From NCBI RefSeq assembly GCF_037392515.1, contig NC_090280.1, positions 17,362,001-17,426,000 on the forward strand: a DNA stretch of 64,000 nt, given 5' to 3'. The DNA comes from Haliotis asinina (Eukaryota; Mollusca; Gastropoda; Lepetellida; Haliotidae). Under the pieces are notes generated by a model. That model had not been told where the DNA came from. It saw only the letters and a list, made by a program, of their open reading frames with translations, and searched no databases. Within the stretch, counting starts at the first letter, position 1, and every line of letters starts with the position of its first letter. This document shows, one piece after another, positions 1-64,000 of the stretch. A program made the translations under genes and the position numbers.

Positions 1-456
1 CTAGAATATTGCAAAAAGCAGCACAAAACCTTGCTCATTTACTGCCATCACCTCTCAAAGTAATTCTCTTCGCATTTTACAGCATACTTTTTCAGGATTT
101 AGTTTCCTTACTGTTAGCATAATTAATGTATTTATTCGCAACGAAAATTAAATAGATTTCAAAAATCACTTTCGAATTATTTGTTTATATTTTTTTTAAA
201 CTGCCAGCTTGTAAAATATGTAAGTAAAGTGAGAGCTGTAATGTTTATGGTCACATTCTATGTTGTTTTTGTTTACACTGACAAGTTATATTGCACATGA
301 TGTTATCTGCACGCTTTGGTAAATAAATGTCTCGTCCATTGTGCTCATATGTCCCACCTAAGTGATAAACGTCTGAAAGCTGCATCAGTTCAGGCTGTTT
401 AAGCGTCAGATTGACATGCAGAGATGAAAATGATATACCATCACACTCATTTTAAG

Positions 457-610
457 GGGCAGTGGGGTAGCCCAGTGGAAAAGTATCTGCTCATGACACT
501 GAAGTCATGGCTTCCATTCAAAACACGAGAAACTTCATTTTAGGTGTCCTGCTATGATATTTCTGGAATATATTAAAAACAATGTAAAACCATACTCACT
601 CGCTGACTGA
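457..610 (+). mobile_element. SINE-A copy (tRNA-derived), old
   Basis: Diverged copy starting with the A-box-like GTGGGGTAGCCCAGTGG. It ends with ATATTTCTGGAATATATTAAAA and ACTCACTCG, matching the tail of better copies such as 42671-42836. The B-box region is degraded. Confidence 0.75.
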
Positions 611-849
611 TGTCAGCGATGACTCAATGACAAGAAATACTATAAATCAACAAAGTTCCCCATCGTCAGTGTTTTGCGAGATAAACAGCTCAGCCAGTCC
701 TACATCTTGTTTGTGCACCTCTTAATGATAACAATACTCACTCACATGAATAATCTAATATAAACATGATCTTCATGCTTTAGTGTAGTGAATTGCATTA
801 AACATGTCATGAATTGTTAAGTCCCTTCTTGCTACATGCTGCTGTTATA

Positions 850-990
850 TTAGCTGAAGCATTTGCTTGTCATGTCGAAGTAACAGGTTCATTTCCCTAC
901 ATATCATTCTTGTGAAGCCTATTTCAGTTGCACCCTGCTGTGATATTGCTGGAGGTTTGCTCAAAGGAACATAAAACCTAACTTAGGTAC
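850..990 (+). mobile_element. SINE-A copy, old and 5'-degraded
   Basis: Recognisable from the tRNA-like half (GCTTGTCATG, GGTTCATTTCCC) and from the unit GTGATATTGCTGGA followed by AACATAAAACCTAACT. The first 30 or so bases are unrecognisable. Confidence 0.6.
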
Positions 991-1094
991 AACCATAAAT
1001 ATTGTAATTTGGCCATGTACAATGACAGTCCATGCCAAACATTTTGAGTTTGTTGGCCTGAATGTGTTACTTATAATGAATTGAAGAAACTATA

Positions 1095-1160
1095 TGGCTT
1101 TAAGCCGTTTTTACCAATATTTAGCAATATCACAGCATGGGACGCCAGAAGATCTTTTGG
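1095..1160 (-). mobile_element. SINE-A tail fragment
   Basis: Reads as the SINE-A 3' half in reverse: TTTAGCAATATCACAGC and GGACGCCAGAA. Only the tail is left. Confidence 0.5.
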
Positions 1161-1764
1161 CCACCAGGCTACACCAGCACCCAAGTAAATATTTGCCATA
1201 GTATTTAGATCGGTTCATGCTGACCTAGGACATCAAGACAGTTACTTGACTACTAGAGGACTCATGCCTAGTGGATGTAGTTGCAGACTTCAGTTATTTA
1301 CAAGAATCCCCAACCTCCCCAAAAGACCAATCAGTTCACTCGTCCAATACAGCCCTGCTTGATAGCAGGTCTCCAAAGTCTCGAATATAGCGCCAATATG
1401 TCAGACAGACTGACAGACATGATAGTGTATCAAGTCTCTACACACATCATTTCCTGGTAAAGATATGACAAAACTTCAGTGTTGCTTTGATGAGGAAGTT
1501 TTTATGACTCCCTCGGGGTTGCAGGTGCTTCTAAACCAACATTGAAAGTTAGATAATATCTGTCCCAGAAACCTGGTTGATATCCTTGATAACAACTCTC
1601 TCTGCGTACATACCCTGTGATTGTCAATGCCTAAAGGGCTTGTGTACACTACTCATAATATAGACACACATATGGAGTATTGTCATATTGCCTATATGAG
1701 TGACAGGGATATATTTCACATGCACATTTATGAGTGATTTATTCATAACTCCCAACAAAACCTG

Positions 1765-2135
1765 TAAGAGCATCTGACCTATCACAAAAACACTTCTGGG
1801 AACATATGTCCTGGTTCAAAAATATCCTGTGCAAACTTGACTGTGTGCAAACTTCATAACTATCTGTGTTATCTGTCTTCATTTCCTATGACCCAACATG
1901 ACTGCTCCATCTCAAAAGTAGCCACTGTGAACTTTTGTCCTGTCTCAAATGAAACCTGTGTATGAACATCTGCTCTGTCTCAAAAGAAACTTCTGCAAAC
2001 AAATATGTCCTGTCTCAAATGAAACCAGTGTTTGAAGGTCTGCTCTGTCTCAAAAGAAACGTCTGTAAATATCAGTTTCAAATGAAACCACTGTGAGCAA
2101 ATGTCCTATCTGGAATGAAAGCTGTGCGAACCTAT
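1765..2135 (+). repeat. Divergent tandem repeat, unit about 30-37 bp
   Basis: The phrase TGTCTCAAATGAAACC, alternating with TGTCTCAAAAGAAAC, recurs about eight to ten times with variable spacers. Copies are too diverged for an exact period by eye. Confidence 0.6.
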
Positions 2136-2689
2136 AACATTTCATGAGATTCTTTATGGTTCTTCGAAACAAAGGTAAAGCCAATAGGAAAAGACTACCA
2201 ATGAATGATCAAATTGTCAGTATGATTCACATTGATACTAAGGAAGTTATCAGTCTCAGTGGAAAGTAAAGGACAACATAGTTTCATAATTGAGGTCACC
2301 GTGAAATGTCTATCCAACACATCAGTACACAGCCTTGTAATAAATGGCTTTGCTTTTCAAATTTCTTATCAGCGACAGACCTTATCTGTACATGAAAATG
2401 TTCATAATTTATATGTTCAAAGGGTTTCACCCTGCTTGCTGTGATTGAATTATTACTGGTGTTGTAGTTTGAAGCCATTGAGGGCGCTGGGCTGATCGCA
2501 AGTTATTGAGAAAAGGGGGGTGTTTTTCAGTCCCTGTGAAACATGGAACTAAGCATTCTGTTTGGGGGAGTTACATTTAATTGGGAGTTACGTCCAATAC
2601 ATGAACATTGGGATGCAAATTGAAAAGCATGTAGATCTCAGAGATCACATTTATGATTTGCCCCAGAACTTTGAAACATTGAAACCATT

Positions 2690-3100
2690 CAAACCATTGC
2701 TGTTAACAGATTTTTTTCATTTTTTTATGGTTTCCATGGAAACGATTTGAACTTAGCCTCAAAAGGAAGGAGTGACATTAGTTTCTGAGCACAGCTCGAA
2801 AACTGTTCAATGTCTTTCATCAGGACTTAAAAGATATATCCAACATGAGCTAAAGTGGTGTCTTTTGAGATTTGCCGGTATTTGGCCTTCTTATTTTCTG
2901 GGTTTCCTTAGTGGAAACGATTTGGACTTAGTTTCAAAAGGGAGGTGTTGGCTTCGTTTCCAGTTCACAACTCAAGAAATGTTAATTTCTGTCTACAAGA
3001 CTTGACAGATATATCAAACACATTTCAAAGTAGCGCCATTTACTATTTGCAGACTATGTTTTTCATGATTCCATGGAAACGATATGAAACCAAGTAAAAA
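2690..3100 (+). repeat. Divergent tandem duplication, unit about 170 bp
   Basis: A segment centred on TTCCATGGAAACGATTTG recurs near 2731, 2905 and 3070. It is followed by CTTAGYYTCAAAAGG and by AGATATATCMAACA in the first two copies. The first copy holds a perfect palindrome GTTTCCATGGAAAC at 2730-2743, which resembles an RFX X-box. Confidence 0.55.
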
Positions 3101-3992
3101 ATTCAAGTTGGATATTACGTAACTGTCAGACATTAAGTAACTGTCTGATGATTTGTTCTTTCAAATTTAAGAGGGCCAGGGGAATTTGTCATCGTCTGAT
3201 GACTCTTGTTATAGCTGACAATCACATGTCAACAAAGTGTTGTCACAGTGGGAACAGTGAGATCACATGAAACCACATTGGTGACAGGTCACATTGTTCC
3301 ATTATGCAAATAATATCTGGCATATACACCAAAGTTGCATGACCATTTTATGACTGTAAATATTTTAAATTTAGAGGTCAAACCTGTTGTCTCTTGTTGG
3401 TTCACACACAAAGTGATATAAGGTCTTTTTCTTACCACCAGAAAAACAAGTTTGGTAAAAATGTAACCTGTAGATGAGCCAGACACTTTCTACAACCTTC
3501 CTTATTTGATCCTTAAATTTCAGCATATCTACAGCCATATACAGTACTTGTTAACAATGAACAGATGTGAGACTGAGTTTTAAGTAGTTAATCAAGCAAG
3601 GATGAGAATGTAAAAATAAATAATTACCAATAGAGTAGATCGTATGGTCTAGTTCATGAGAATCTTATTCTCCTAGCAAGCTAGTGGTAACCTGCAGAGC
3701 AGAGAGGGTCACAAGTGCTTTGCAAATGGATGTTGTGATCTTGCATAAAGACACTCGCTCGATCAGTATAACTGTAACACTATACTCTGTACAGTGTTCC
3801 ACTAGTCAGACAGGTGATTATGAGGGGTATCACCAGTGATAGTATTGTCAGTGATGAGGGTTCTCCTTCATTATGTATAACCAAACGTTTGAGGTGATTA
3901 GTTTTCTATGAAAAAATATTTGTCTTTCTTGAATTATTTACAAGTTATTGATCATCGTCTTGCAACGAAAGTACCAGAGCACCTCTGACTGT

Positions 3993-15730: not shown

Positions 15731-16220
15731 TTGTACTCCCTTATAACTTTTTGTGATGAAAAATAGGTTTTGTTGATGTATTTGTGTAACAAATAGATTT
15801 GCAAAAGGGCTTAATTCCCTTAGTTTAAACATGATGTATACCCTTTTGGTGTGTGGAAGTGGGTTTTGAGTGGTGTTAGGTATATATGTACTGGTGACAA
15901 AAAAACAAAATGAATTTTTTGGACTTTTGATTTTTAGTGTCAGTGTGGTATGTTTATGTTTTTGAAAACATATACTCGGCAGTATTCACACTTCATGATT
16001 GTGTTCTGTAAATAAGCGAACTTGGAACAGACAATACAGAGATTGACAGCACAAGGCTGAAGCCGTGTAATACAGAACATAATACAGACAAAATTTCGTG
16101 ATCTATCTGCATTATTCAGTCTCTTTCAACCACCTCATGTGGCGACTTTTATTTACACCAAAGTCAACAAACAGGAAGATGACTCTTAAATCCCTTGACA
16201 TCTCCTGTATTTTATTACAA

Positions 16221-16370
16221 GGGACAGCCAAGTGGTTAAAGCGTTTGCTTATCATGCTGAAGACCCTGGTTCAATTCCCTACATGGGTACAATGTGTGAA
16301 GCCCATTTCTTGTGTCCTCCGCTGTGATATTGCTGGAATATTGCTGAAAGTAGCTTGGGCTAAGTTCACT
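16221..16370 (+). mobile_element. SINE-A copy
   Basis: GGGACAGCCAAGTGGTTAAA, GGTTCAATTCCCTACATGGG and GTGATATTGCTGGAATATTG in order. The tail ends in a diverged GCTAAGTTCACTC. Confidence 0.85.
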
Positions 16371-25329: not shown

Positions 25330-25702
25330 AAAATACGTCAAACAATATCATGACGGGACACCAGAAATGGGCTTCACACAGAAATGAGTGAGTGAGTGAG
25401 TTTAGTTTTACGCCACACTCAGCAATATTCCAGCTATATGGCGGCGGTCTGTAAATAATCGAGTCTGCACCAGACAATCCAGTGATCAACAACATGAGCA
25501 TCGACCTGCGCAATTGGAAACCGATGACATGCGTCAACCAAGTCAGCAAGCCTGACCACCCGATCCCGTTAGTCGCCTCTTACGACAAGCTGAGTCGCCT
25601 TTTATGGCAAGCTTGGGTTGCTGAAGGCCTATTCTACCCCGGGTGGACCTTCACGGGTCACACAGAAATGAGCTTTAACCACTAAACTACTCATCTCCCT
25701 CC
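25330..25702 (-). mobile_element. SINE-A copy interrupted by SINE-B
   Basis: Reverse SINE-A pieces lie on both sides of the SINE-B at 25389-25658. The left is ATGACGGGACACCAGAAATGGGCTTCACAC; the right is CTTTAACCACTAAACTACTC. The joined pieces read as one SINE-A. Confidence 0.8.
25389..25658 (-). mobile_element. SINE-B, full length with 14-bp target duplication
   Basis: CACACAGAAATGAG flanks both ends (25375-25388 and 25659-25672). Read on the minus strand it starts ACCCGTGAAGGTCC, has the 5' section with an extra GACTCAGCTTGTCG step, and ends in (CTCA)n. Confidence 0.93.
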
Positions 25703-26035: not shown

Positions 26036-26196
26036 GGTTGGTGGGGTAACCAAGCGGTTAAAGCGTTCGCTCGTCACGCTGAAGACTCGCGTTCGATTCC
26101 CCATATGGGTACAATGTGTGAAGCCCGTTTCTGGTGTCCCCCAACCGTGATATTGCTAAATGATTGCTAAAAGGGGCGAAAAACTAAACTAAACTT
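26036..26196 (+). mobile_element. SINE-A copy next to a splice acceptor
   Basis: GTTGGTGGGGTAACCAAGCG (A box), GCGTTCGATTCCCCATATGG (B box), then GAAAAACTAAACTAAAC. It ends about 13 bp before the acceptor at 26208-26209. Confidence 0.9.
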
Positions 26197-36400: not shown

Positions 36401-39400
36401 AGAGGCTGTTGCCGTTACGTCAACTACTACTCAATTGCCGTCAGCTACGACGTCACACGTTGGCGACAGCTCAGTTTCGTGACCTAGTTATCCAGCGTCA
36501 GGTCGAAGACGTGGTTCGATTCCCAATGTGTAAGCTTGGTCTTCCCGCTGTGACAGCTGAATATTGCTACCCGCGCGTAAAGCCAAACCCATGTGATACT
36601 GGGCGATAAATAAGGAAGAAAACCACCTATCGTCAACAACAACAACTCGAAATGTTGTAGACTGTTACGTAGGCGAAACATCGCCACCCACCAACACCCG
36701 AGTGGAAGAACATCGCACCTCCGTTACCAATTCCATCAGGAAATCAGTCATATATGGCTACATCAAAACAAGACCCGGGATCAAATGTTATCAGTTATTA
36801 GGTCGAAAGTATTATAGAAAAATCAATTCCTCAAATGATATATTTTTCCAAGGAAGAATAAGTGAGGACGGAGGAATGGGGAAAGAAACGAGCTCAGAGT
36901 TATCTCTCTTCTGTTATAGACATGGATGGCTCTTATGTATTAATTTAAATTACTGTCTTAACGAAAATCAATTAGTGATATTGATAGCTACAGTAATTAT
37001 TTCTGGTCGGGGGATGAAATTAACACCACTACCTGCAGTTGTTGATATTTTTCACAGTTCAATAGACTACACGCTTGTAAATTAAGTTACAAAATGTGCC
37101 CTTTTCTTGTCTAATATGACTTTTTTCTATTCGGGTATTTCGAACGGAAGAGGTTTCCATTTCTGTGCTACTTGTATCCCTAGAGGTTCCTGGTTAGAGT
37201 TGTTCACTGACAACTATTCTCAGAATTGAATGAATGAAAAAACTATTGTTTGCTTTTGCGCTACGAAGACACAAGATAACCCACTGAACGATTTATTTGC
37301 ATTAAAGACACTGACAAAATATCGGTGAACCATTTTAAAATGCATCATGCTATTTCAGTCTGCTTCACTATGAATACCCATTAGTGCAAACTAGAGCACA
37401 CGCACACGCACACGCATACACACCAACGATGCTTCATGAATGAATAATGAATACTTGCAAGTCGACGTTTTAATCCCTTTTCACGTCACAGCATCTATGG
37501 CGTCGACGTATAGACAATCATTTCAACTCATTGTCAACATGTACAAAAAGTAGTCCGGTAGAAACATTATTATTTTATACATGCAATTATTTTAATATTG
37601 TAACATTGTTGTTTTAGGTACAAGTTTAGACATTTTCGTCCCACACTTGATCGAAGTCTACAACGGCCGAAGTATCACATTTGACGTCATTTATACTCCC
37701 TACAAGACAAGCGATGACGTCACAATTAACATCACAAAACAATCACAGAGGTTCGCTGTCATTGAAGTGGCTAATGGCTCGATGGCACAGATTCAACGGT
37801 TCGGGAGTTGGTCCCGACGAGTCAGACTTGTACAAAAGGAGGAAAAGTTCTTCGTAACGTTGGATAAGGTTGCCGTTGCTGATGACGGCGATTATGATGT
37901 CACGGTCAAGGTCAACGGTGTATCTAAAGAAAAACGCATGCATATTGGCGTTCTAGGTAGGTTTTACTAATTCTTTCAGTGTTACATTTAATACTCACAT
38001 TTACATGCAGATAATCTCCCATTCAATTTCCGCAACTACTTTGGCTTAGTGTAAAGGGCAGAGGCCTCGCTGAGCCTTGAGGGACGCCACATGAAAGCAG
38101 CGCATTCTGAGAGACAGCTTCAGATGACTGCCAGTTGACATCTGTCACAAAGATAGGGGATACGCCACTTATGTACTGTGGCATCAATGTAATAATCCAG
38201 TTTGAGAGAATGGCTTAAAGTATGATAGTCAAAGGTATCAAATGAAGCAGAAAGGTTGTCCAGGAGCACCAACATTGCAAACAGGAGAACGTTCATCAGA
38301 GTTCAAGGCTGTTCCTGTGCTATGAGCTATACAACGTCCATTTGGGTATCCATGTAATACTGGTATTCCTTAGGGCAGGTATTGTTTCATTGTTGCTTAA
38401 TACCATTGCCCCTCCAATGTTAATCATTATTCAGTGACACTTTTGTGTAATATACTGAGTACAAACAATGAGGATTTTTAACTTTACGGGCACTGGCCAT
38501 TGTTCTTAAAGTGTTTTTCAAATAAGATGTATATGGAAATAGAAATATTGCTCTATTGTTCACCACGTGACGTGCGTTCTATCAGATACTATTGTATTTT
38601 AGGCTATGAGGCCGAAATAGTGACGAAATACATGATATCATATATCACGGACTTTGGAAAACCGTCTTTGGTATGGATTAATGAGAACAACTAAATAGCG
38701 CGCGCACACACACACACAGACACAGACACAGACAGACACACACCTGCGCAAGTGTAGTAATTTTATATATTGCTCCTTTTAAAGGGTTTTCTTGTCTCAA
38801 TTTCCACGTGGAAATTCATGCCATGGGTTGCAATAAGCACTCGTCCTTGTACACTCAAAGAAAATCGGTCAGCCTGATGGTTTTTATCTATATTTATTGT
38901 GGAAAAATCCGGTTCAAAGAGATTCGTTGCGCATCGTAAATTTCTTTCAAGATTACTATTACGGCAAATAACCCATGAAGATCTTTGTAAGAAGTGATCT
39001 TCAGTAAGCCATGCATATCGAAAGAGGCAACCAACAGGATCAGGTGGTCAGGATGACCGACTTGATTGACACGTCATTTTATCGCAGTTGCGTAGATAGA
39101 AGCTAATGCTGCTTATCACTGGATTGTGTGATCAAGACTCGATTGTTTACAACACACACACACACACACACACTCACACACACACAATGAATGCGGCGTT
39201 AAGAACAAACATGGTTGATAAGCATTTGTGCTCATAATATTAACCCTTTTTCAGAGTACCCATCGGATGTCAACATCGAAATCATCAATGTAAATCCCGG
39301 ATCCTACCAAGTGACAACCCCAGTGCAGTTCATGTGTAGTGGAATCGGTGGAAGGCCATTAGGGGAGATAACTCTCGCAAGAAGAACTTTAGGCGATGTG

Positions 39401-46240: not shown

Positions 46241-47029
46241 TGTCTCACTTCAAACTACGCCAGTATTGTTTACACGAGATAGTGCGGCGTTATTTGTACA
46301 TTTGAACCACGCCTATAGTAACACTGGTTCGAGCAGAATAGCATTGTTTAACTCTTCCTGAATGCTTCTTTCATTGACGAAAGCTTGCACAAACGTTTGC
46401 TGATAAAAAGCTCCTTCTCAATGCCTGCGCGATATACAACCTTACACAAAGCCTTTGAAAGGTGAAATTCTTTTAGCCTTATTGTATATGTGCTGCATAT
46501 GTAAGTCTTTCTCACGCTATAGTATGAGAAGACTTACTCTACCGTGACGAAATTAGGGTCCATACACTGAACGATTCACATTTCGCTCGAGAAACGGCGA
46601 TATTTTTAGCATGGCACCTTCAACAACTTGAACCTTGACCTTTGACCTACGCAAACGGCGATTACAGTGGCGTCGTGACAGTGTGGGTCACCCGTGTTGG
46701 TTGGGCAACCTGCGTGCTTTCTGGCGAGCATTGGAGACTTTTCACGGGAGTTTTTTTAAACTTTCATTTCCCAAGCGTCAGCTTTGAAAGTCTCTATGGA
46801 ATGTGGAAACGCCGTGATATGGAGTTAGTTAAACCAGTGTTGAAGACCTGACAGGTGCTCTGTAACCGTAGAATGTTTACAATCGTCATTGACTCAGACC
46901 GAGCTATGACAATTGGAAAAACAGGAGACAGAAATATACAGGTCCATGAGTCATCCGTCAATGCCAAAGAAACTTTACTTATGACTTTACTAAACATGCT
47001 ATGCATATAAACGCCTTAATGTATTTTCT

Positions 47030-47296
47030 GACCCGTGATGGTTCCGGGGTAGAATAGGCCTTCAGCAACCCAAGCTTGCCATAAAAGTCGACTAAGCTTG
47101 TCGTAAGAGGCGACTAACGGGATCGGGTGGTCAGGCTCGCTGACTTGGTTGACACATGTCATCAGTTCCCCATTGTGCAGATCGCTGCTCATGTTGTTGA
47201 TCACAGGATTGTCTGGTCCAGACTCGATTATTTACAGACCGCCGCCATATAGCTTGAATATTGCTGAGTGCGGCGTAAAACTAAACTCACTCAATG
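47030..47296 (+). mobile_element. SINE-B, full-length reference copy with 11-bp target duplication
   Basis: ATGTATTTTCT flanks it (47019-47029 and 47297-47307). In order: GACCCGTGATGGTTCCGGGG, GTCGTAAGAGGCGACTAACG, GGATCGGGTGGTCAGGCTCG, CTGACTTGGTTGACACATGT, GATTGTCTGGTCCAGACTCG, TTATTTACAGACCGCCGCCA, then TTGCTGAGTGCGGCGTAAAA and CTCACTCA. The last part equals the SINE-A tail. No clear pol III boxes are seen in the head. Confidence 0.95.
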
Positions 47297-51480: not shown

Positions 51481-51589
51481 TTATCAGCATTATATCACCA
51501 CCCTCACAGTTTACCAGTACCCCATTGTCATAATAATGTTTTATGCATCCCGTATTTAAGGCAGGTCACCATCACCTTAACAATGCAAC

Positions 51590-51785
51590 CCTTAAAGTGA
51601 CGTTATTATGATGACACTATAGATATCCCTTAAGGTGACGTTATTATGATGACACTATAGATATCGCTTAAGGTGACGTTATTATGATAACACTATAGAT
51701 ACCCCATTGAGTGACGTTGTGATGATGACGCTGTAGATATTCCTAAAGTGACGTTATTATGATGACGCTATATACATCCCTTTAA
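51590..51785 (+). repeat. 38-bp minisatellite split by a piggyBac-like element
   Basis: Unit GTGACGTTATTATGATGACA plus CTATAGATATCCCTTAAG, about five copies. Further copies follow the element at 54985-55040 (GTGACGTTATGATGAGGACA). Confidence 0.88.
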
Positions 51786-54700
51786 CCCCCTGGATGCCGA
51801 GTTTTTTTTCAGGCGCACATTTTCATAAGGTTTGAAAAGTGAACGTTGTGCGAGATTTGTGCTCGCGTGGTCCTGGATCTGCGTACGGCTATGAAATTGC
51901 ACAGACATGTAGAATATTTAATTTCCTATCCGTTGGTATAAATATAATTGCGGCTACCTCAGGGGTTTGAGAAATAGACACTGCTAAAAGTTGTCCAAAA
52001 CTTTTGTGTGTGTTGAAAAACAGTAAATTTCTCAGTGTTTTATCGTGCACCAATAAAAGCACTCTGCTACGATTTTTTAAATTTGGCATCTTTACGGAAA
52101 GTGTGAGCGAAGAAAATACAGCTTGATATCTGAACGACGTAAGTGTATATGAAATGGATGTATGTGCTAATGCATAACGTCATGCTCACAAAATAAAAAT
52201 GACCCGCAATAAATGTCAAAAATCGATTTTCTACTATGACGTCAAATGTCGACAGAGAGGTCATGCACGTATAAAGGTAAGGGGGCATAACTCCGCTATG
52301 GTTTACATTAGGTCAATGTAACTCCGATCACATGGAGAGAATTTGCTATGGATATGGACAGTATATTTTCGTGATGTTTTGTTCACAGTGAACCAAACTA
52401 TTCCAATACAAATTTCCCCAACGTGAGAGAATACCTTTTGGTAGTTTCACAATTTGTAAGAAAAGATGCCAGTGTACTACATCAAAAAGCAGGTAATAGC
52501 GATTTGGATGTCCCTATCCGATACATAATTTAGTTCTTAGATTCCCATATTCTCCTGTTTGTGTAGATGTATTTTGATTAATTTTGCATCATTATTAACG
52601 GAGTAACAGCCACATTTTCAAATGTAATGAAATTACTGAAAATACTGCGACATTTTAGTTGACGTCATGGCATGTTTTGTGCATTTTGTGACGTCGGAAA
52701 AAGACTACTCTGGTTGCTGATTAGTATATATCTAACCTAATTTCTACTCAATGTGTAAAAGATCTCGGCTTCTGTGTCAGAATTCAACACTTTTTAGCCA
52801 AAATATGAAATGAATGGTTTTATCACTGAAATAGTGTCCTGAATATATCAACAATTACACGGTTTTACTACATATCTTATTGTGAGCAACACGCGCACCT
52901 GTCTAGCATCAGTTTAGCGTAAATGAAAATTTCACAACACCTGAATATTCATAGAGTATTCATTTAGGAAAAAGACTTTTCTTCTCGTGATTATGAAATC
53001 AATTCCCTTCATAAGTATGCAATGAAAGGTACAAAGAGATCGCTTTTTCAGTAAAGAAGTATTAGAAAATGGACGTAAGGCTTGTCCAAATTAAGACTTG
53101 ACCTGATTTATATATTTTTAACAATTTCCGTATAAATATTGTTTGAGTTAGACATTCTGCCATCAGATATATTTTAATCGCATTTGAATTGACTTTATTA
53201 TCGAAAAACAATGATAATGAATCATGAAACGTTTTGACAAACTCGCACCTGGTCAATTAATATTCATAATAGTTTTGTCTATAAAAACGACACAAACCAA
53301 TACAATGAACAAAACAATTCCTTTAAATAGTAGTATGTGTGCCCCTACATTTGATAAAATGTACAAATCATTTTCATTAATATTATCCGTTTTACTTATA
53401 AGTTGGAAGTAAATCGCTGTTTATTAACCTGTTCATATGAAACTGCAATATTTGTCCCATCGTATTGAATATTGCACATGACGGGAACTAAAGCATATGT
53501 TGCAGTAATGGCTACGTGTGATCTTCCAACACTTGTGTAGAGGCGTAAAATGTGGTGTAATACACTTACTGAGTCAATTTCCCATGTAAATATTATTCAA
53601 ACAATCAAAAGCTTTCAAAGAATAAAAACGGATACCTTATATCCACACATGATATGGTGTTGAACATGGATATATGTAGATACTGAAATCAATTTCATGA
53701 AAAAATATCTGAACGATGCACAAAATATACATCACAATACTAAAAGTGCAATCGGAATGGTATGGGAATTGTGTTTACTCTTGTTCAACCGACCTTCACC
53801 TCAAAGAAATTGCCTAATATGTGCAACAATGTTGACGTGTGACATCACTACCGATGACCGATTTCTTTCAAAATGGCGGCTTCGTTGAGAAGGGTACACA
53901 GGATTTTGCGACGACTTTTTGCTTGATTCAGGGATCTTTTGTATATAAATGTGAGATGTAAGTAATTAGATTTATTCTGACTATCTGTGTATTGTTATAT
54001 GTTCTTATCGTTTACATTGTAAATGACGGAAGAAGCCAGAAATGCCGATAAGTACCGTTGTCGTTCTGCGTGATTTTGCGTCAGTCATGGCGTCACGCTG
54101 CACTAAAAGTTTGACAGTTTCTTATGAATTACCAAATTATTTCATTGTATCTATTTTCAATTTGCTATTTTTTGCCACGATACTCTTCCCCTGAATATAC
54201 TAAGCGTATTGAGCCATTGTAAACAATGATTAGAGAGCTGGATGTTGGAAAATTTCCGAAAATGCTAGGCAGTGTAAAATTGGAATTTTTCTTTGTTTAC
54301 ATTTCAGTCAAGCGCTGTCTTTCGAGCACAGCGTTCGTTTTCATACAAAGTATATTTCGTTTCGTTTGTCTAGACAGTTGGTATTGGTGACAAAGACCAT
54401 TTCTAATTTGATTCTAAGATGCTTGGGGAATTCAATAATGCATTTGTCGTAGCTAACTATGAAGTATACATGATGTAATAGGCTTCTCAATACCGGCCTT
54501 CTCGAAACGTGATTTTGTAAACACTAACCAATATGGCGGAAAGCGCACTTCGGCGTTCGTGTAAGTGTATTTTCGAAAACATCCCAACCGATTCTGGGTA
54601 CATCGGTGACGTTTCAGAATTATCATTCCTGGTTACATGAAAACTTGATATCAGTGATCATTAATATGCTATTTTTGAAATTCATTACTCCCAGTAATTA

Positions 54701-54984
54701 TCCGATTTTCACATTTCAAAACATACTGCAAATAACGCTGTGAATCTCGATTTTGTACAGTTTGAAAAATGGCGACATTTACGATGAAGCCTATTTTGAA
54801 AGGCGATTTTAAGCACTTTAGCTTAGTCTGAGTTAATAGCGGATGGTACCAAGAAACTGGGAATTTTCCGCAGAATTCAAAACTGTGAGGTGTTTATATA
54901 TGCGTGGTATATTTAGAATTTTAATGGACTTCCAAGTGAGGTATGTAGAGGAAGGACATATATGTCCCTGTGGCATCCAGGGGG
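51786..54984. mobile_element. piggyBac-like non-autonomous element, long copy (3.2 kb)
   Basis: 13-bp inverted termini CCCCCTGGATGCC, with TTAA on both sides (51782-51785 and 54985-54988), as in piggyBac transposition. No transposase-like frame: the longest open frames are under 75 codons and resemble nothing. The internal part contains TGACGTCA at 52237 and 52660. ATGGCGG-type motifs occur at 53872 and 54534. A palindrome GGACATATATGTCC lies near the right end. Confidence 0.92.
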
Positions 54985-55040
54985 TTAACGTGACGTTATG
55001 ATGAGGACAATATAGATATTCCTAAAAGTGACGTTATCAT
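54985..55040 (+). repeat. Right flank of the split 38-bp minisatellite
   Basis: TTAACGTGACGTTATGATGA and GATATTCCTAAAAGTGACGT continue the array interrupted at 51785. Confidence 0.8.
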
Positions 55041-55196
55041 CACTTCTTCATCATCATCGCCGCCGTCTCCACCACACTCTCCGCATCAGCAGCATGTCTG
55101 TCGCCAAGGTCAAACGCCCCGGAACTACAACTAGGAGATAAACAATGACAGTTAGTACCTAATCAGCTGCAGCGCTGAGACCCGCGTTGATTCTGA

Positions 55197-55575
55197 TGAC
55201 CCGTGAAGATCCGGGCCAGAACTGATCTTAAATAACCCATGTGACCTTTCTCAACCAGTGAAGGTCTGGGTTTGAATCGATCTTCAGTTGTCTCCATCAG
55301 TGAAGATCAGGGTCTGAATTAATGTTCAACAGCCCATGCATGCTTGTCTCCACCTGTGAAGATCCGGGTCAAAATCGATCTTCAGTTACCCTCACTTGTC
55401 GCAAGAGGCGACTAACGGGATGTGATAGGTACGCTGACGTGTTTGACGCATATCGTATTCAAGATGCGTAGATCGATGCTCATGATGCTGATCACTGGAT
55501 TGTCTGGTCCAGGTTCGAGTATTTACAGACCGCTGTCAGGGAACTTTAATATTGCTAAGTACGATGTCAGACAAG
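55197..55575 (+). mobile_element. SINE-B copy with about four tandem heads
   Basis: Head phrases CCGTGAAGATCCGGGCCAGA, CAGTGAAGGTCTGGGTTTGA, CAGTGAAGATCAGGGTCTGA and CTGTGAAGATCCGGGTCAAA precede one body (GCAAGAGGCGACTAACGGGA ... TGATCACTGGATTGTCTGGT). Confidence 0.88.
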
Positions 55576-56277
55576 ACAACAAACATCGATTCCGGTGCCT
55601 TATTCCAAATTTGGCACCTCATTTATACTTAGGATATTCTGTGCCAGGATGACAACCATCAACATTGTGGTATCGTCCTTTCCAAACATGGAGACAACTT
55701 AGTAAAGGATGGCAGCTTTTGGGTGTTAACAATGGCTGGAGAGGAAAGCCACATATGGCAAACGAACCTATGTAAAGTTTTGATTTATGATTTCAAACAT
55801 TCCTATGGGTAGAACTAATACCACATGAATTTTATCAACTGTTTTATATTTCACTCACGCGTTTTCGATTTCAGCATTAATGTTTTACAAATCAGATAAA
55901 TTTCTTATCTTTGTTCTTCACGCAGATCGGGCAGCAGATCATCACGGTTAATAATACTTAAACAATGGAGATACAATCACACTCGTGGTTCTGGTTAAGT
56001 GTTTAATATTTAACGTCCATATATTATTTAACATAGCATGTCTTTCGTCTTAATGTGTTTTCTTTCAGCTCTTGTGAAACCCTTGTGAATTAATTGTGTG
56101 GAAATAAACGCTCAATATATGAATGGACTATACTAATCTAGTGAACCAGTGACCAGCCCCTTTAGGGTGTTTTATAGTTCTGTTCAATAGTCTTTGTTTC
56201 CTTACGCATTTTAGTTCACAAAACAGGTGTATAGTTTCCTTTTCGAGTCAGTTTACTTGTCACAGTTAAAGTGAGTT
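55576..56277. other. Intergenic, nothing recognised
   Basis: AT-rich sequence with no supported exon, repeat or inverted structure. Confidence 0.5.
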
Positions 56278-56518
56278 CATGAGTGAGTACAATTTTTCGC
56301 CACATCCGCAACATTCCAGCTATACGACTGTCGTCCGTAAATAAGCGAGTCTGGACCAGACAATCGCGTGATGAACATCATGAACAATCTACGCAATTTG
56401 GAACCGATGACATTTGTCAAAAATGTCAGCGTGTCTGACCACCCGATCTCATTAGTCGCCCCTCAAGACATGCATGGGTTCCTGAAGATCAGTTCCAACC
56501 CGGATCTTCACGGGTCAC
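56278..56518 (-). mobile_element. SINE-B copy
   Basis: Tail GAGTGAGTACAATTTTTCGC, body GACCAGACAATCGCGTGATG, head CCGGATCTTCACGGGTCACA. A possible short duplication TCACAGTKAAA lies at both ends. Confidence 0.88.
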
Positions 56519-56754
56519 AGTGAAACCATGTAGTATGATTATATGGATAATATGGTTGCCAGGAAGGAATTATTACCCACGACGTTTACAGAAAAGTGGG
56601 GTGTAGGCTAGTGTGGGCATGTGTCGTTTCTTTTCTGGGTAACGTTACATCATTAATAAATTGCGATATTTTCTTATCATCTAACTGAATGCGCAGAATG
56701 AAATATATCTATCACACAATACGGTCGTCTATTACAGAATCTGGATGTGATTAG

Positions 56755-56975
56755 TTGGTTGTTTACCGCCACACTCAGATTCCGCTATGTGGCACCGGTC
56801 CGTAAATAATCGAGTCTAGACCAGACAATCCAGTGATCAACATGACGAGCATAGTTTTACGCATTTGGAAACCGATGACATATGTCAACCAGGTCTGACC
56901 ACCCGATCACGTTAGTTACGACAAGCGTGCATGGGTTTGTGAAGACCGGTTCTAACCGAATCTTCTCGTGCACCA
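56755..56975 (-). mobile_element. SINE-B copy
   Basis: TTGTTTACCGCCACACTCAG, GACCAGACAATCCAGTGATC, CTGACCACCCGATCACGTTA. Confidence 0.85.
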
Positions 56976-57104
56976 TAATCTGGAAATATACGAACATACC
57001 AAACATTCTGCCAACAGATAATAATTTGACCTTAATGCTATTTTTTATTATGAAAGTGTTTTCTGTTTCAAAGACTGCCAGGGGAAACCGGGCATGGGTT
57101 AACA

Positions 57105-57155
57105 TGCACATGTACTGTTGTACGGAATCGAACCGGGACCTCGGCGTAACGAAAA
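57105..57155 (-). mobile_element. SINE-A B-box fragment
   Basis: TACGGAATCGAACCGGGACC and TCGGCGTAACGAA. Confidence 0.55.
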
Positions 57156-57474
57156 AAACCCAGTCTGGTCCGCTTCGAAAACTTCTCAAGAGTTATTATC
57201 TAAACAAAATGCATTTGAAGCATTTGGCGGTGATGGCATTAGTTAAGTGAGTTAGACGTGTACATGCATCCGCCCTTGCGAATATGCAGGCACGTCTTTC
57301 CATTTAGGTAACACAGATCCTGTGTCAAGGACAAATTTCGCAACGTTTGACTTGAAATCCTCTGTTGACATAAGCATGTATTGCTGAGCGAATTGCGACA
57401 GATATGTACGTTGTAGGCGATAATGCTTAACCTATATTCACTTGGTTACTGTGGAGGTCAAACTTAACGGTCGT

Positions 57475-57570
57475 GACCCCGCTTCAGGGAGCTATCGTAA
57501 GTCTTTGTTACAGTATGTGGAAGGTACGACCGTCGCAGCGCTTTGGTAGCTTCGTGAAATGGGGCGCTAG
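57475..57570. mobile_element. Fold-back MITE fragment
   Basis: GACCCCGCTTCAGGGAGCTA with TCGTAAGTC faces GCGCTTTGGTAGCTTCGTGA and AATGGGGC; imperfect arms. Confidence 0.55.
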
Positions 57571-59291
57571 TGTCGAAATTTAGACACAACTAATATCACA
57601 TCATGCATGCTGATATTTGACGAGTAAAATACTTTTAGGATATTCTTCATTAGAGTCTTTAACATGTAGAAACATCGTGGGTGGTCTTCTCTGGAAGGAA
57701 ATGTACGTAGTCGTTGTCGTAAATGTAGCAGAGAGAGTTGTCGTCACGGTACCAGTTGACGCAGAAAAGAGCGAGAGTGATGTAGCAGTTTTTAATGGTG
57801 TAGTGACAAGCATTTTATGATGAAATAAAAGCATTCAAAACGTCATTTTAATTTGGGGAAAATATTAGAACATTTTGAGAATTAAATTTCAATTTTGGCA
57901 TCTTGATTAGGAATTTTTAGCGGTACGCATTAAGAATACCTGTAATGAGTTGAAGAGTAGATAAGGACATTTTAGAGGAACTATAAGGCGTTTGAAATGG
58001 ATGTAATCATATTAGTAATCAATGTAATCATTTTTAGTAATATAAGGATGTAAGCGTTTTGTAACGAATGTAATTTTTAAGTACGCATGTAATTGCTTTA
58101 GAAACACCTATAGATATTTAGTTGTCGACTGTAGTCGTTAGTTTTAACATCTGTAACTAGTACATGTACTGCAAGTTGCTTTAATCGAAGCATCTACATC
58201 TACTCTATACTATTTAGACAGTTCTGTTTCCTATAGCGCATTTCCTGATTAACATTTCAAGCGACACGCTGTTGAGACATACATTGTTAATAGTGTATTG
58301 TTGTAAGACATTCAACTGTGTTAACATAACAACACTGTGACCCTACCAATGATTAGCGAGTCGTGTAACTTTAATCATAACGGCCCGCTCCCAGTCGATA
58401 TTTCAACTACAGATATAGGATAGCCTACTTTGTAGCGTCCTCTCATGATATTAAACATGAGGCTTACAACCGGTGGTTATATGAACACCAAATATAGGCC
58501 TTGTATATTAATAAACTATTGTTCCATAACCTTAAATAGTTATATCTTAAACATTGATCTGTATTATTCATATGTTTTATAGTAGGAAAAATCGCCAAAT
58601 ATTATTAAATGAAATATTAAAATGGATGTGTAGACACCGGTATGGAGCCCCAGGGTTACACATTCCAGCGTACTGGATATCCACAAAACCCTTCCAACCA
58701 TATAATTTGGTAAAGAGCAATATTTATATTATATGTTTCCGGGTATCAACGGTGCAGCTGTAGCTGACAAATCTAAATGCATATATTTCCTGCGCTTTAG
58801 AGACAGTCGATTATTAACCCAAGGACTGACTATACGAGTCACGTGACAAGTAGACATGCCAAGCATAGCAGGGCGATGACACAGCCGTGCGCGCAGATGT
58901 CTCTTGACTGGGCTTCTGTCTTCCTGCATGAGGAAGCGCGCCAAGTTTCAGCGCGAACAGTCAAATTACTACACTGGTAATCGGAGCACGGCTAACAATG
59001 CGTTCAACATGAATGGTTCTATTCAAATAGTTTGAGTCGCGTGAGAAGAAAATTTCCCTTGTATAAGCACTCGTGCGTATACACAGCTCTAAACTGCTTT
59101 CCAAGCTCGTTTAACTGAACATGTCAGACGTGAACATGTTCAAATGTTTCTGCGAAAAGCGGAAAGTGAATGTTGTTTTGCATCGCGTCTTCACAACTTT
59201 CACAGTCACTGTATTTGATGTCAGTTTTTAGATTTAATATTTACGTAAGAGTTGAACATAATGATATGTTTTATTCATTCTTTGTCGAGCA
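57571..59291. other. Intergenic, no supported gene
   Basis: Includes a Thr-rich minus frame at 57601-57834 (TTPLKTATSLSLFSASTGTV) without splice support, and AT-rich DNA. Confidence 0.5.
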
Positions 59292-59457
59292 TGTGAGTGA
59301 GTATGGTTTTCCGCCGCTTAATGCAATACTCCAGCAATAATTACTGTGGAGGACACCAGAAATGAGCTTCACACATTTTTACCCACGTGGGGAATCAAAC
59401 ACGGGTCTTCAGCGTGACGAGCGGACACTTTATCCATTAGGCTACCCCACTGCCCCT
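59292..59457 (-). mobile_element. SINE-A copy
   Basis: GTGAGTGAGTATGGTTTTCC, GGGAATCAAACACGGGTCTT, CCATTAGGCTACCCCACTGC. Confidence 0.92.
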
Positions 59458-59494
59458 TTGTGGGAATTTGTGTGGTCGCTCAAAATGAGACGTC

Positions 59495-59665
59495 TTGGAA
59501 GATCATGGTTAGAACTGATCTTCTGCAACCAGTGCTTGTTTGACTTGTGGCTTTTGATCGTATAGATCACGGTTAGAACTGCTGGCTTGTGTGGTCCATA
59601 CTCCGACGTTTTTAGACGCCCGTCATGTGGCTTGAACATTGTTGAACGCAGCCTTAAACTAAAGC
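59495..59665 (+). mobile_element. SINE-B copy, diverged
   Basis: GGAAGATCATGGTTAGAACT, GATCTTCTGCAACC, then CGTCATGTGGCTTGAACATT, GTTGAACGCAGCCTTAAACT. Confidence 0.7.
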
Positions 59666-59874
59666 CAAAACATCAGTAATATTTATAAGAGTCGACTATC
59701 ATCCATCGTCTGTTTACAATATGGCGGCTTACTGACGGCATAATTATTAATCAACAGCTGTGATGCCAACTGCTGATTTACTGGTCCACACAATCCCCAA
59801 TGAAACAGGTCTACTTTTCGGCATGGAGAGCTGCGTCCCTTTGTACATTTAGGACCGAGTTCAGAATCAACCCG

Positions 59875-60015
59875 AGTCTCCTTTCACGAAGCAGCCTTTA
59901 CTAAGGTTAACCTTATCTCCCATTCTTTAACACTGGACTAAGGTAACCTTAGTGCAGTGTTAAAGAGTGGGAGTTAAGGTTAACCTTAATTAAGGTTGCT
60001 TTGTGAAAGGAGCCC
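59875..60015. mobile_element. Fold-back MITE, about 140 bp
   Basis: Arms of about 60 bp: CTCCTTTCACGAAGCAGCCT, AAGGTTAACCTTA and CTTTAACACTG are mirrored to the end GTGAAAGGAGCC. The loop itself holds CTAAGGTAACCTTAG. Confidence 0.85.
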
Positions 60016-60199
60016 CAGATAATGCACATTGATGTGTTATGACCACACCTTTGTCACGTCAAACATGCGTGCCATGTTCAAGCTGAAATAATATCGAATG
60101 CTACGCTCGACCATCCACTAGCTCAATCACACACACATTTTCAAGTCAACCCCTATCCACTAACCTATCATTCCATCCATCCGCCCGATTACCCATTCA

Positions 60200-60330
60200 G
60201 CCACTCGATCATTCATTCATTCACTCACTCACTTTATCATGCCCCCCCCCCCCCCGTCACATCCTTTTCTCACCAGTCCATCCATTCACTCGCTCACCCA
60301 CTCACCCACTCACTCAGTGTCCAGTCAAAG
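60200..60330 (+). repeat. (ATTC/CTCA)n and poly-C low-complexity tract
   Basis: CATTCATTCATTCACTCACT, a C homopolymer at 60242-60255, then CACTCACCCACTCAC. Confidence 0.85.
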
Positions 60331-61251
60331 TTACTCACTCACTCTCCGACTCTTCTCCACGCTCTTTCAAACCAGGGTGTATATCAGGGTCGGATACAGC
60401 TTTTTGAGAAGACGGGGTGCATACTTCATTTTCACCCATTTTCACGGCTTTTAAAAAATGGCCAGGACAAAAATATAAGTAAGGGGGTGAGGGTGCGCAG
60501 ACCCCTTAATGGGTCCGCCTATGAGTATGTGTTCCACAAACTTCGTCCATACATTTGACTTCCCAGAATGCAGCTGAGAATATGGTTTATCACTCATTGC
60601 TCCACTGATGCTCGGCTTGGATATAATTAAGTACGTGCCTGAACTACTTTCGCTCTTGGTGTGACCAGTACGTACATCTGAGTGCAACCACCCTTGTATG
60701 ACAGTTGACTGTTTATGAAAACAACGTTTCCCGTAGTCACAACAAATCTAGAACATCCGACAAAATGGCTACGGTCCAAGCGGCCATATTTGATTTTCGG
60801 CGTGCGTGCGGTTTCCCGACCTCAACAGGCAAATATTTTTCCCCGCCTGAGGCCAGTAACCAAACAGTGGTTGTTTGCGTATTAATGGTTGATCCAACAT
60901 TTACATCTTGTTGAACTATCTCGTTATACGTGAAAACTGCTTGTCTGTTTGCTAATATTTGAATGTTACTTCCGCCATCTTGAATTTTATGAAGATATGC
61001 ACTTCCGCTAAACAGGAAATATCCCATTAGGGAATTACGTTTCGAGTTCTCTTGCGGTTTCTGTTTTAATCAGGATAAAACATGGAGAAGAGGCATACTA
61101 TTGTTCTCACTATCGCGAATGACATACGTATATGATCGGTTAGGTTTATGCCGTTTTGGCAGTGTTTCAGCAACATCACAGAACGATACCAAAATGTTTC
61201 CAAATTTCAGCTATGCGGGGACTCAACCTCAGCTAGCTCTTCGCCGTCTAG
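60331..61251. other. Intergenic, no supported gene
   Basis: ATGGCT and CCGCCATCTTG motifs at about 60764 and 60974 resemble YY1 sites, but no exon can be shown. Confidence 0.45.
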
Positions 61252-62990
61252 AGCGGTAGGGGTATCCTAGTGGTTAACCCCCTGGATGCCGAGTTTTTTT
61301 TTCAGGCGCACATTTTCGTAAGGTTTGAAAAGTGAGCGTTGTGCGAGAATTGCGCTCGCGTGGTCCTGGATCTGCGTAGGACTATAAAATTACACACAAA
61401 TGTAGAATATTTAATTTCCTATCCGTTGGTATAAATATAACTGCGACTACATCAAGGGTTTGAGAAATAGACACTGCTAAATTTTGTCCAAAACGTTTGT
61501 GTGCGTTAAAAAACAGTAAATTTTTCCGTTTTTTATCGTGCACCGATAAAAGCACTCTGCTTTGATTTGTTTTAATTTGTCATCTTTACGTAAAATGTTA
61601 GCGAAGAAAATATAGCTTGATATCTGAACGACATAAGTGTATATGAAATGGATTTATGTGCTAATGCATAACGTCATACGCACGAAATAAAAAGATGACC
61701 CGCAATAAATGTCAAAAATCGATTTTCTTCTATGACGTCAAACGTCGACAGAGAGGTCATGCACGTATATTGACAGGGGGGCATAACTCCGCTATGGTTT
61801 ACATTAGGTCAATGTTACTACGATCACATGGAGAGAATTTGCTGTGGATACGGACAGTATATTTTCGTTATGTTTTGTTCACACTGAACCAAACTAATCC
61901 AGTACAAAGTTCCGCAGTGTGAGCGGATGCCATCTGGGAGTTTTACAATTTATAAGAAAAGATGCCAATGTAGTACATCAGAAAGTAGGTAATAACAATT
62001 CGGATGGCCCAATCCGATACATAATTTAGTTCTTAGATTCCCATATTCTCCTGTTTGTAGATTTCCATCATTATTAACGGAGTAACAGACACATCTTCAA
62101 ATGTAATGAAATAACTGAAAATTATGCGACATTTTAGTTGACGTCATGGCATTTTTTGTGAATTTTGTGACGTCGGAACAAGACGACACTGGTTTGCTGA
62201 TTAGTATATATCTAACCTAATTTCCACTCAGCGTGTAAAAGATATCGGCTTCTGTGTCAGAATTCAACACTCTCTAGACAAAACATAAAATGAATGGCTT
62301 TGCCACTGAAATAGTGTCCTGAATATATCAACAATTAGACGGTTTTACTACGTATCTTATTGTGAGCAGCACGCGCACCTGTCAGGCATCAATTTAGCAT
62401 AAATTAAAATTTCATAACACCTGAATATTCATTGAATATTCATTTAGGAAATAGACTTTTTTTCTTATGATTATGTAATTATTTTACTTCATAAGCATGC
62501 AATGAAAGGTTCAAAGAGATCGCTTTTTCAGTAAGGAACTATTAGAATACGGACGTAAGGTTTGTCCAAATTAAGACATGACCTGGTTTATCTATTTTTA
62601 ACAATTTTCGTATAAATATTGTTTGAGTTAGATATTCTGCCATAAGCACTTTAGCTTGGTCTGAGATGATAGTGGATGGTATCAAGAAACAGGGAATTTT
62701 CCACAGAATTCAAAACTGTGAAATATATATATGTGCATGGTATATTTAGAATTTTATTGAACTTCAAAGTGAGGGGTGAAGAGGAAGGACAAAGGACATA
62801 TATGTCCCTGTGACATTCAGGGGGTAAGCCTTACTGCTCGCTTGTCACGCTGCAGATCCGGTTCGATTCCCCACACTGGTACATTGTGTGAAACCCCTGG
62901 TGTCTGGTGTCCCCCGCTGTGGTATTGCTGGAATATTGAAGAAGAAAAACAATATATCGAAAATGTGGCGTAAAACTCTCTTACTTGTGT
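61252..62990 (+). mobile_element. SINE-A copy interrupted by the short piggyBac-like element
   Basis: 5' piece GCGGTAGGGGTATCCTAGTG plus GTTAA ends at 61277. The remainder continues at 62825 with GCTCGCTTGTCACGCTGCAG, the B box CGGTTCGATTCCCCACACTG, GTATTGCTGGAATATTG and GGCGTAAAACTCTC. Confidence 0.9.
61278..62824. mobile_element. piggyBac-like non-autonomous element, short copy (1.55 kb)
   Basis: Left terminus CCCCCTGGATGCCGAG, right terminus GACATTCAGGGG (two changes from the complement). TTAA at the left, TAA remaining at the right. Left about 1.37 kb aligns with 51786-53164 and the right about 180 bp with 54813-54984. The middle 1.65 kb is missing. Confidence 0.92.
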
Positions 62991-63854: not shown

Positions 63855-64000
63855 AAGGGTTAACCCAGTGGTTAAAGCGTTCGCTCGTCATGCCGAAGAC
63901 CTGGGTTCGATTCCCCACATGGACACTATGTGTGAAGCCCATGTCTGGTGGCCCCCGCCGTGATATTGCTGCAATATTGCTAAAAGCGACCTAAAACTAA
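63855..64000 (+). mobile_element. SINE-A copy, cut by the window end
   Basis: AACCCAGTGGTTAAAGCGTT, GGGTTCGATTCCCCACATGG, CCCGCCGTGATATTGCTGCA, GCGACCTAAAACTAA. Confidence 0.92.

Follow-up and report, generated by a model that had tools for sequence, protein, structure and literature searches.

A multicopy non-coding piggyBac-type family in Haliotis asinina and an old member with an internal deletion

Results

Copies A and B in the window

The window analyzed here is a 64,000-nucleotide stretch of the Haliotis asinina genome (contig NC_090280.1; G000:C1:17362001-17426000 in the 1.143-Gb assembly that was searched). It contains two related transposable elements, designated copy A and copy B, and BLAST comparison of the window with itself (E 1e-3) revealed no third copy within the 64 kb. 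Copy A very probably belongs to a large non-autonomous piggyBac-type family whose interior was already non-coding when it spread, with B as an old member that lost part of its interior and left no visible subfamily. Positions of the elements, their ends and their insertion sites are collected in Table 1.

As the original prediction held, A and B have both ends and most of their sequence in common. Identity is 1238 of 1368 aligned bases in the left shared part (90.5%, Kimura two-parameter distance (K2P) 0.10) and 157 of 178 in the right (88.2%, K2P 0.13), and BLAST E-values of 0.0 (left) and ~1e-54 (right) mean that the likeness is not due to chance. The extents predicted for the two copies and for the gap (about 53164 to 54813) were right to within a few bases. 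At the deletion join of B, where at most a couple of shared bases had been expected, a single T is common to both sides and leaves one base of ambiguity. The middle of A has no inverted repeat at its borders and at most one duplicated base.

Both copies had been described as TTAA insertions. This stands in full for A, which has TTAA on both sides, and for the left side of B, the right side of which has TAA. The right end of B agrees with its left end at 11 of 13 bases (CCCCCTGAATGTC), with two changes; because of these changes and the TAA flank we call the right end eroded, a point on which the original prediction was silent. When the flanks of A were joined by script, sister units of the minisatellite aligned across the join (three alignments). 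Joining the flanks of B in the same manner restored a short interspersed element (SINE), to which six SINE copies of the window align across the join at 70-76% identity. Compared with most sister SINEs, the one around B carries ~5 extra bases just to the right of the join, perhaps as a trait of its subfamily, perhaps through a change that came later.

Table 1. Positions in the window of the two elements, their ends and their insertion sites
Feature	Position	Strand	Remarks
Copy A	51786..54984	+	3199 bp; non-coding piggyBac-type element, typical full-length family member
TTAA target duplication, left flank of A	51782..51785	.	
TTAA target duplication, right flank of A	54985..54988	.	
Left inverted end of A	51786..51798	+	13 bp, CCCCCTGGATGCC
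Right inverted end of A	54972..54984	-	13 bp, perfect match to left end of A
Subterminal palindrome GGACATATATGTCC beside right end of A	54954..54967	.	
38-bp minisatellite hosting the insertion of A	51589..51782	+	one more unit after A at 54990-55026
Middle of A absent from B	53164..54810	+	1647 bp by base count; carried by all ten full-length copies in the alignment
Copy B	61278..62824	+	1547 bp; internal-deletion copy, old, right end eroded
TTAA left of B	61274..61277	.	
TAA right of B	62825..62827	.	remnant of target duplication
Subterminal palindrome GGACATATATGTCC in B	62794..62807	.	
tRNA-type SINE split by B, left part	61254..61277	+	similar SINEs elsewhere in window
tRNA-type SINE split by B, right part	62828..62938	+	

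The family across the genome

The genome search suggested with the original prediction, for the 13-bp terminus plus TTAA, found many other copies. The exact 17-base end TTAACCCCCTGGATGCC occurs 837 times (427 forward, 410 reverse) and the reversed-pattern control 0 times, so chance is rejected; as an element has at most two such ends, the family comprises at least 419 elements. Among the first 100 of the 837 ends listed, to which all counts of pairs given here refer, there are 29 facing pairs. The spacing is 3103-3217 bp in 25 of these and 2354, 3825, 3849 and 7682 bp in the other four, so that one pair of the 29 falls below 3.1 kb. The other paired copies that were read likewise have TTAA on either side. 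In viral contigs the 17-base end was found at 2 loci, neither of which matches A or B by BLAST; bacterial and archaeal genomes gave 0 matches to a 20-base end pattern. A literature search did not find the exact 13-base end, and no title listed for piggyBac with mollusc or Haliotis dealt with the family (neither search extended to subscription papers or repeat databases).

Eight elements in L043-L049 are 93.6-96.1% identical to A over its whole length (1-3199). For alignment, ten full-length copies were used: A, L043-L048, both copies in L049, and L039 after removal of its 684-bp insert. Pairwise K2P among the ten is 0.013-0.070. The insert (1412-2095 in L039) interrupts the element at A 1372/1373, which is six bases away from the left breakpoint of B, possibly by coincidence. 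Outside this comparison are L031 (matching only A 2337-3199 and one other short piece; its distances of ~0.41 stem from sequence not matching the element), L032 (match stops at A 1107), L033 (a partial read), and the rearranged or deleted copies L040, L041, L042 and L050. Of these, L041 (G000:C2:882036-889825) is a compound element in which an inverted internal segment separates two family copies, and L042 (G000:C2:17471173-17473634) is a foldback in which A 1-797 is followed directly by A 1-1561 in reverse complement, giving two left ends with TTAA on both sides.

Coding capacity

Twenty-two frames of at least 50 amino acids overlap A, the longest stop-free one being 96 amino acids. No transposase was found in the 20 of these 22 frames scanned against Pfam, where the best matches (E 0.02-0.24) were all below the family cut-offs. 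In the ten-copy alignment, stop codons common to at least nine copies number 42-57 in every one of the six frames, and the longest run between common stops is 103 codons. Stops common to these copies in all six frames imply, therefore, that the 3.2-kb element was already a non-coding passenger when it spread. The hallmark of an autonomous piggyBac element, the encoding of a transposase, is thus lacking in A. The claim that neither copy codes for a transposase holds for A, on whose frames the scan was run and in which nearly all of B has a counterpart.

Origin and age of B

The K2P distance from B to each of the ten long copies is 0.104-0.119 (left part). Because B is 10-12% from every one of them, A is not its parent and was rejected as such. 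In a quick FastTree run, B and the old copy L040 formed a group (support 1.00 for the whole, 0.87 for the left part alone), with B on a terminal branch of ~0.06 versus ~0.017 for A; the pairwise distance between B and L040 (0.125) is nevertheless no smaller than that between B and A (0.107). L040, in which A 805-1265 is replaced, spans both breakpoints of the B deletion, and L033, read to A 1527 only, spans the left one. The commonest pair size and these two diverged copies together make the long form the older state, in agreement with the earlier claim that the short copy arose by deletion and not the long copy by insertion.

A 160-base query over the join of B gave 41 matches (40 of 1692 first-look candidates scored). 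Only B itself spans the join, the others matching one half. A second internal deletion was found in L050 (G000:C14:7255900-7258100), where A 1-1500 is joined to A 2958-3199 between perfect ends with TTAA; its join is other than that of B, and the two are separate deletions. On this evidence B appears to be an old deletion unique to one copy rather than the ancestor of a short family.

Search for a transposase partner

That piggyBac transposases are encoded in the same genome agrees with what had been expected: PF13843 (piggyBac transposase) has 117 matches there, and 0 of 14 named control genomes were positive. Twenty-eight distinct places out of the 117 were read, namely L003-L030 (L003, L008 and L009 overlap L011-L013) and L051-L053. 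The complete coding piggyBac elements among them resemble A in their TTAA target, 13-bp CCC ends and length of 2.6-3.6 kb. Unlike A, they surround PF13843 frames, have other ends (CCCTTATCAGGCC, CCCTCTGATCCTG, CCCTCTAGTTCCC) and show no BLAST similarity to A or B, and they were rejected as partners for their different ends and this lack of similarity.

Complete or near-complete piggyBac elements with these three other end types are L004-L007, L012-L014, L016, L019, L023-L026 and L028. Several have long open transposase frames of 559-626 amino acids (best eight of the 117 matches), two of them with an internal stop. L015 (C18) and L016 (C4) have 5.8 kb in common at 99.8% identity, perhaps through a recent duplication or as alternative haplotypes.

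One of three further places, L053 (C4:54544800-54549900), has a related end, CCCCCTAGATGCCACAGGGACAT...TGTCCC at 204, in which 41 bases are 83% identical to the right end of A. It lies ~2 kb before broken transposase frames and points toward them; two of three transposase pieces match PF13843 (E 4e-16 and 3e-11) and the third does not. A protein search with one of these pieces gave 29 matches, the closest besides itself being 57-77% identical and nearly all with stops. Places of this transposase family include C4:73170707, C4:54559952, C4:5184641, C4:4768445 and C1:94359472. L053 contains the palindrome GGACA..TGTCC twice, and A and B each contain it once; the rest of the window lacks it, as do the six other piggyBac loci that were examined. 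Across TCAA, the L053 end adjoins the left end of a 3.2-kb family member, which matches over 207 bp at 88% before the stretch edge cuts it off. An opposite end was not found within 5.1 kb, allowing 3 mismatches. Inward of its end L053 does not significantly resemble A (best E 0.13), and the 3.2-kb interior is therefore not simply a deleted version of the L053 element. L053 may be a dead relative of the mobilizer, that is, a decayed candidate partner.

Other features of the window

On the + strand, an intact 478-amino-acid frame at 26191-27624 matches Galactosyl_T (PF01762, E 2e-40) and is probably a beta-1,3-galactosyltransferase gene; a frame at 37596-37967, also +, matches an immunoglobulin V-set domain (E 4e-6) and is probably an exon. 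Self-comparison of the window showed two abundant dispersed short repeats, one a tRNA-type SINE and one of another kind, at places such as 16219-16350, 26043-26187 and 63857-64000, and 25393-25660 and 47029-47293. Rfam gave 0 matches on the window and ARAGORN no tRNA.

Discussion

Judged by its sequence, the A/B family is a non-autonomous piggyBac-type family, a known kind of element, and is unusual in that its multiplied form is 3.2 kb long. The piggyBac-type ends and TTAA target named in the original prediction were both recovered. The target duplication is seen on both sides of A, as TTAA/TAA at B and in the aligned joined flanks, and the inverted ends, perfect over 13 bp in A, start with CCC, as is typical of piggyBac according to PMC10813416. 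Kolobok elements likewise duplicate TTAA and have been reported in many animals, mollusks among them (PMC9587614), which would make a Kolobok type an alternative for A and B. The termini of Kolobok and T2-MITE elements are 5'-RR according to PMC9587614 and PMC6004289, against the 5'-CC (5'-CCC in A) seen here, and the relic with a matching end, L053, has its PF13843 transposase ~2 kb inward. TTAA duplication combined with CCC ends therefore fits piggyBac and not Kolobok; the latter was rejected on its termini, and we consider a Kolobok-type element extremely improbable.

PMC3849761 describes Pokey and mPok of Daphnia with the same TTAA target, short inverted ends and shorter non-coding derivatives taken to have arisen by deletion. 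There mPok, of ~750 bp, has multiplied beside full-length Pokey that is possibly still making transposase, whereas the multiplied non-coding form found here is 3.2 kb, B looks like a singleton and an intact partner was not found. Deletion of piggyBac elements is a known route to miniature inverted-repeat transposable elements (MITEs), stated for mPok in the same paper. A-type elements resemble MITEs in being non-coding, with inverted ends and many copies. A and B (3199 and 1547 bp) are above the usual size, which alone is not decisive: 750 bp is called atypically large for a MITE in PMC3849761, where larger MITEs are also said to be known. A high-copy homogeneous short form was not seen for B among the 41 junction matches (40 of 1692 candidates scored), and B has apparently not multiplied.

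The original prediction took B to show how MITEs arise, that is, as a real amplified short MITE-like subfamily with A-type progenitors. B does have both ends, deletion derivatives recur (L050 being one with perfect ends and TTAA), and the mPok MITEs are apparently deletion derivatives of Pokey (PMC3849761). The claim is not supported: the B junction is spanned by one of 41 matches, B itself, with 40 of 1692 candidates scored; B is 1.5 kb long and old, and A is not its source; no facing pair of ~1.55 kb is present among the 29, a count in which eroded copies would not show; and the join of L050 is unlike that of B. We therefore regard such a subfamily as very unlikely. The reverse history, in which a B-like ancestor gained the 1.65-kb middle by insertion, would agree with the distances, which place B outside the ten young long copies. 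That L040 carries both breakpoints and L033 the left one, with B grouping with L040 (at a distance, as noted, no smaller than that to A), and that the middle lacks inverted repeats and is bordered by no more than one duplicated base, leave this history scarcely credible. As for L053, its end could belong to another non-autonomous element lying 2 kb before an unrelated transposase relic. The missing opposite end, the TCAA flank, the abutting end of a 3.2-kb family member and the protein identities of 57-77%, which make the transposase relatives far older than the young long copies, all point that way; the 83% match to the right end of A, the doubled palindrome and the orientation of the end toward the transposase point to a partner. 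We lean slightly toward the decayed partner and take the coincidental arrangement to be quite possible.

Several observations weigh against our interpretation of the family and of B as a singleton. Since scoring reached 40 of 1692 candidates, a second B junction may be missed if its sequence has diverged, although a spanning match should outrank half matches. L043-L049 were picked for an end spacing of ~3.2 kb and L039 for its odd size, so the presence of the middle in them is partly by choice. The count of pairs sees copies with two exact ends and misses eroded copies like B, and 42 of the 100 ends were unpaired. None of the 28 transposase places read has an exact end of this family with its TTAA, nor did they include an intact transposase with A/B ends, and of 18 PF13843 places on C1 and on C2 to 44.7 Mb (~1/8 of the genome, the part over which the 100 listed ends extend), none lies less than 86 kb from an exact end.

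We infer that a piggyBac transposase mobilized the family. Encoded elsewhere, it would recognize the 13-bp ends, and probably neighboring sequence too, excise the element and paste it into TTAA. B would have lost its 1647-bp interior through end-joining or interrupted gap repair, either before or after inserting into the SINE; point changes would then have accumulated, and the deletion would have founded no visible subfamily.

It is conceivable, if unlikely, that the 3.2-kb interior is kept because movement or survival depends on it (for example through spacing, chromatin or a non-coding transcript), in which case shortened forms such as B and L050 would recur and fail to spread. If true, this would invert the usual expectation, in which shorter derivatives prevail. 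The family clearly illustrates how a piggyBac-type passenger of full size can multiply, here to at least 419 elements, without coding for anything, shortened forms being rare among the pairs (one of 29). MITEs are commonly thought to arise by progressive shrinking, and this idea becomes testable within one genome by counting deletion copies against full-length ones. The defined pair of ends and the subterminal palindrome also provide a search handle for the transposase partner.

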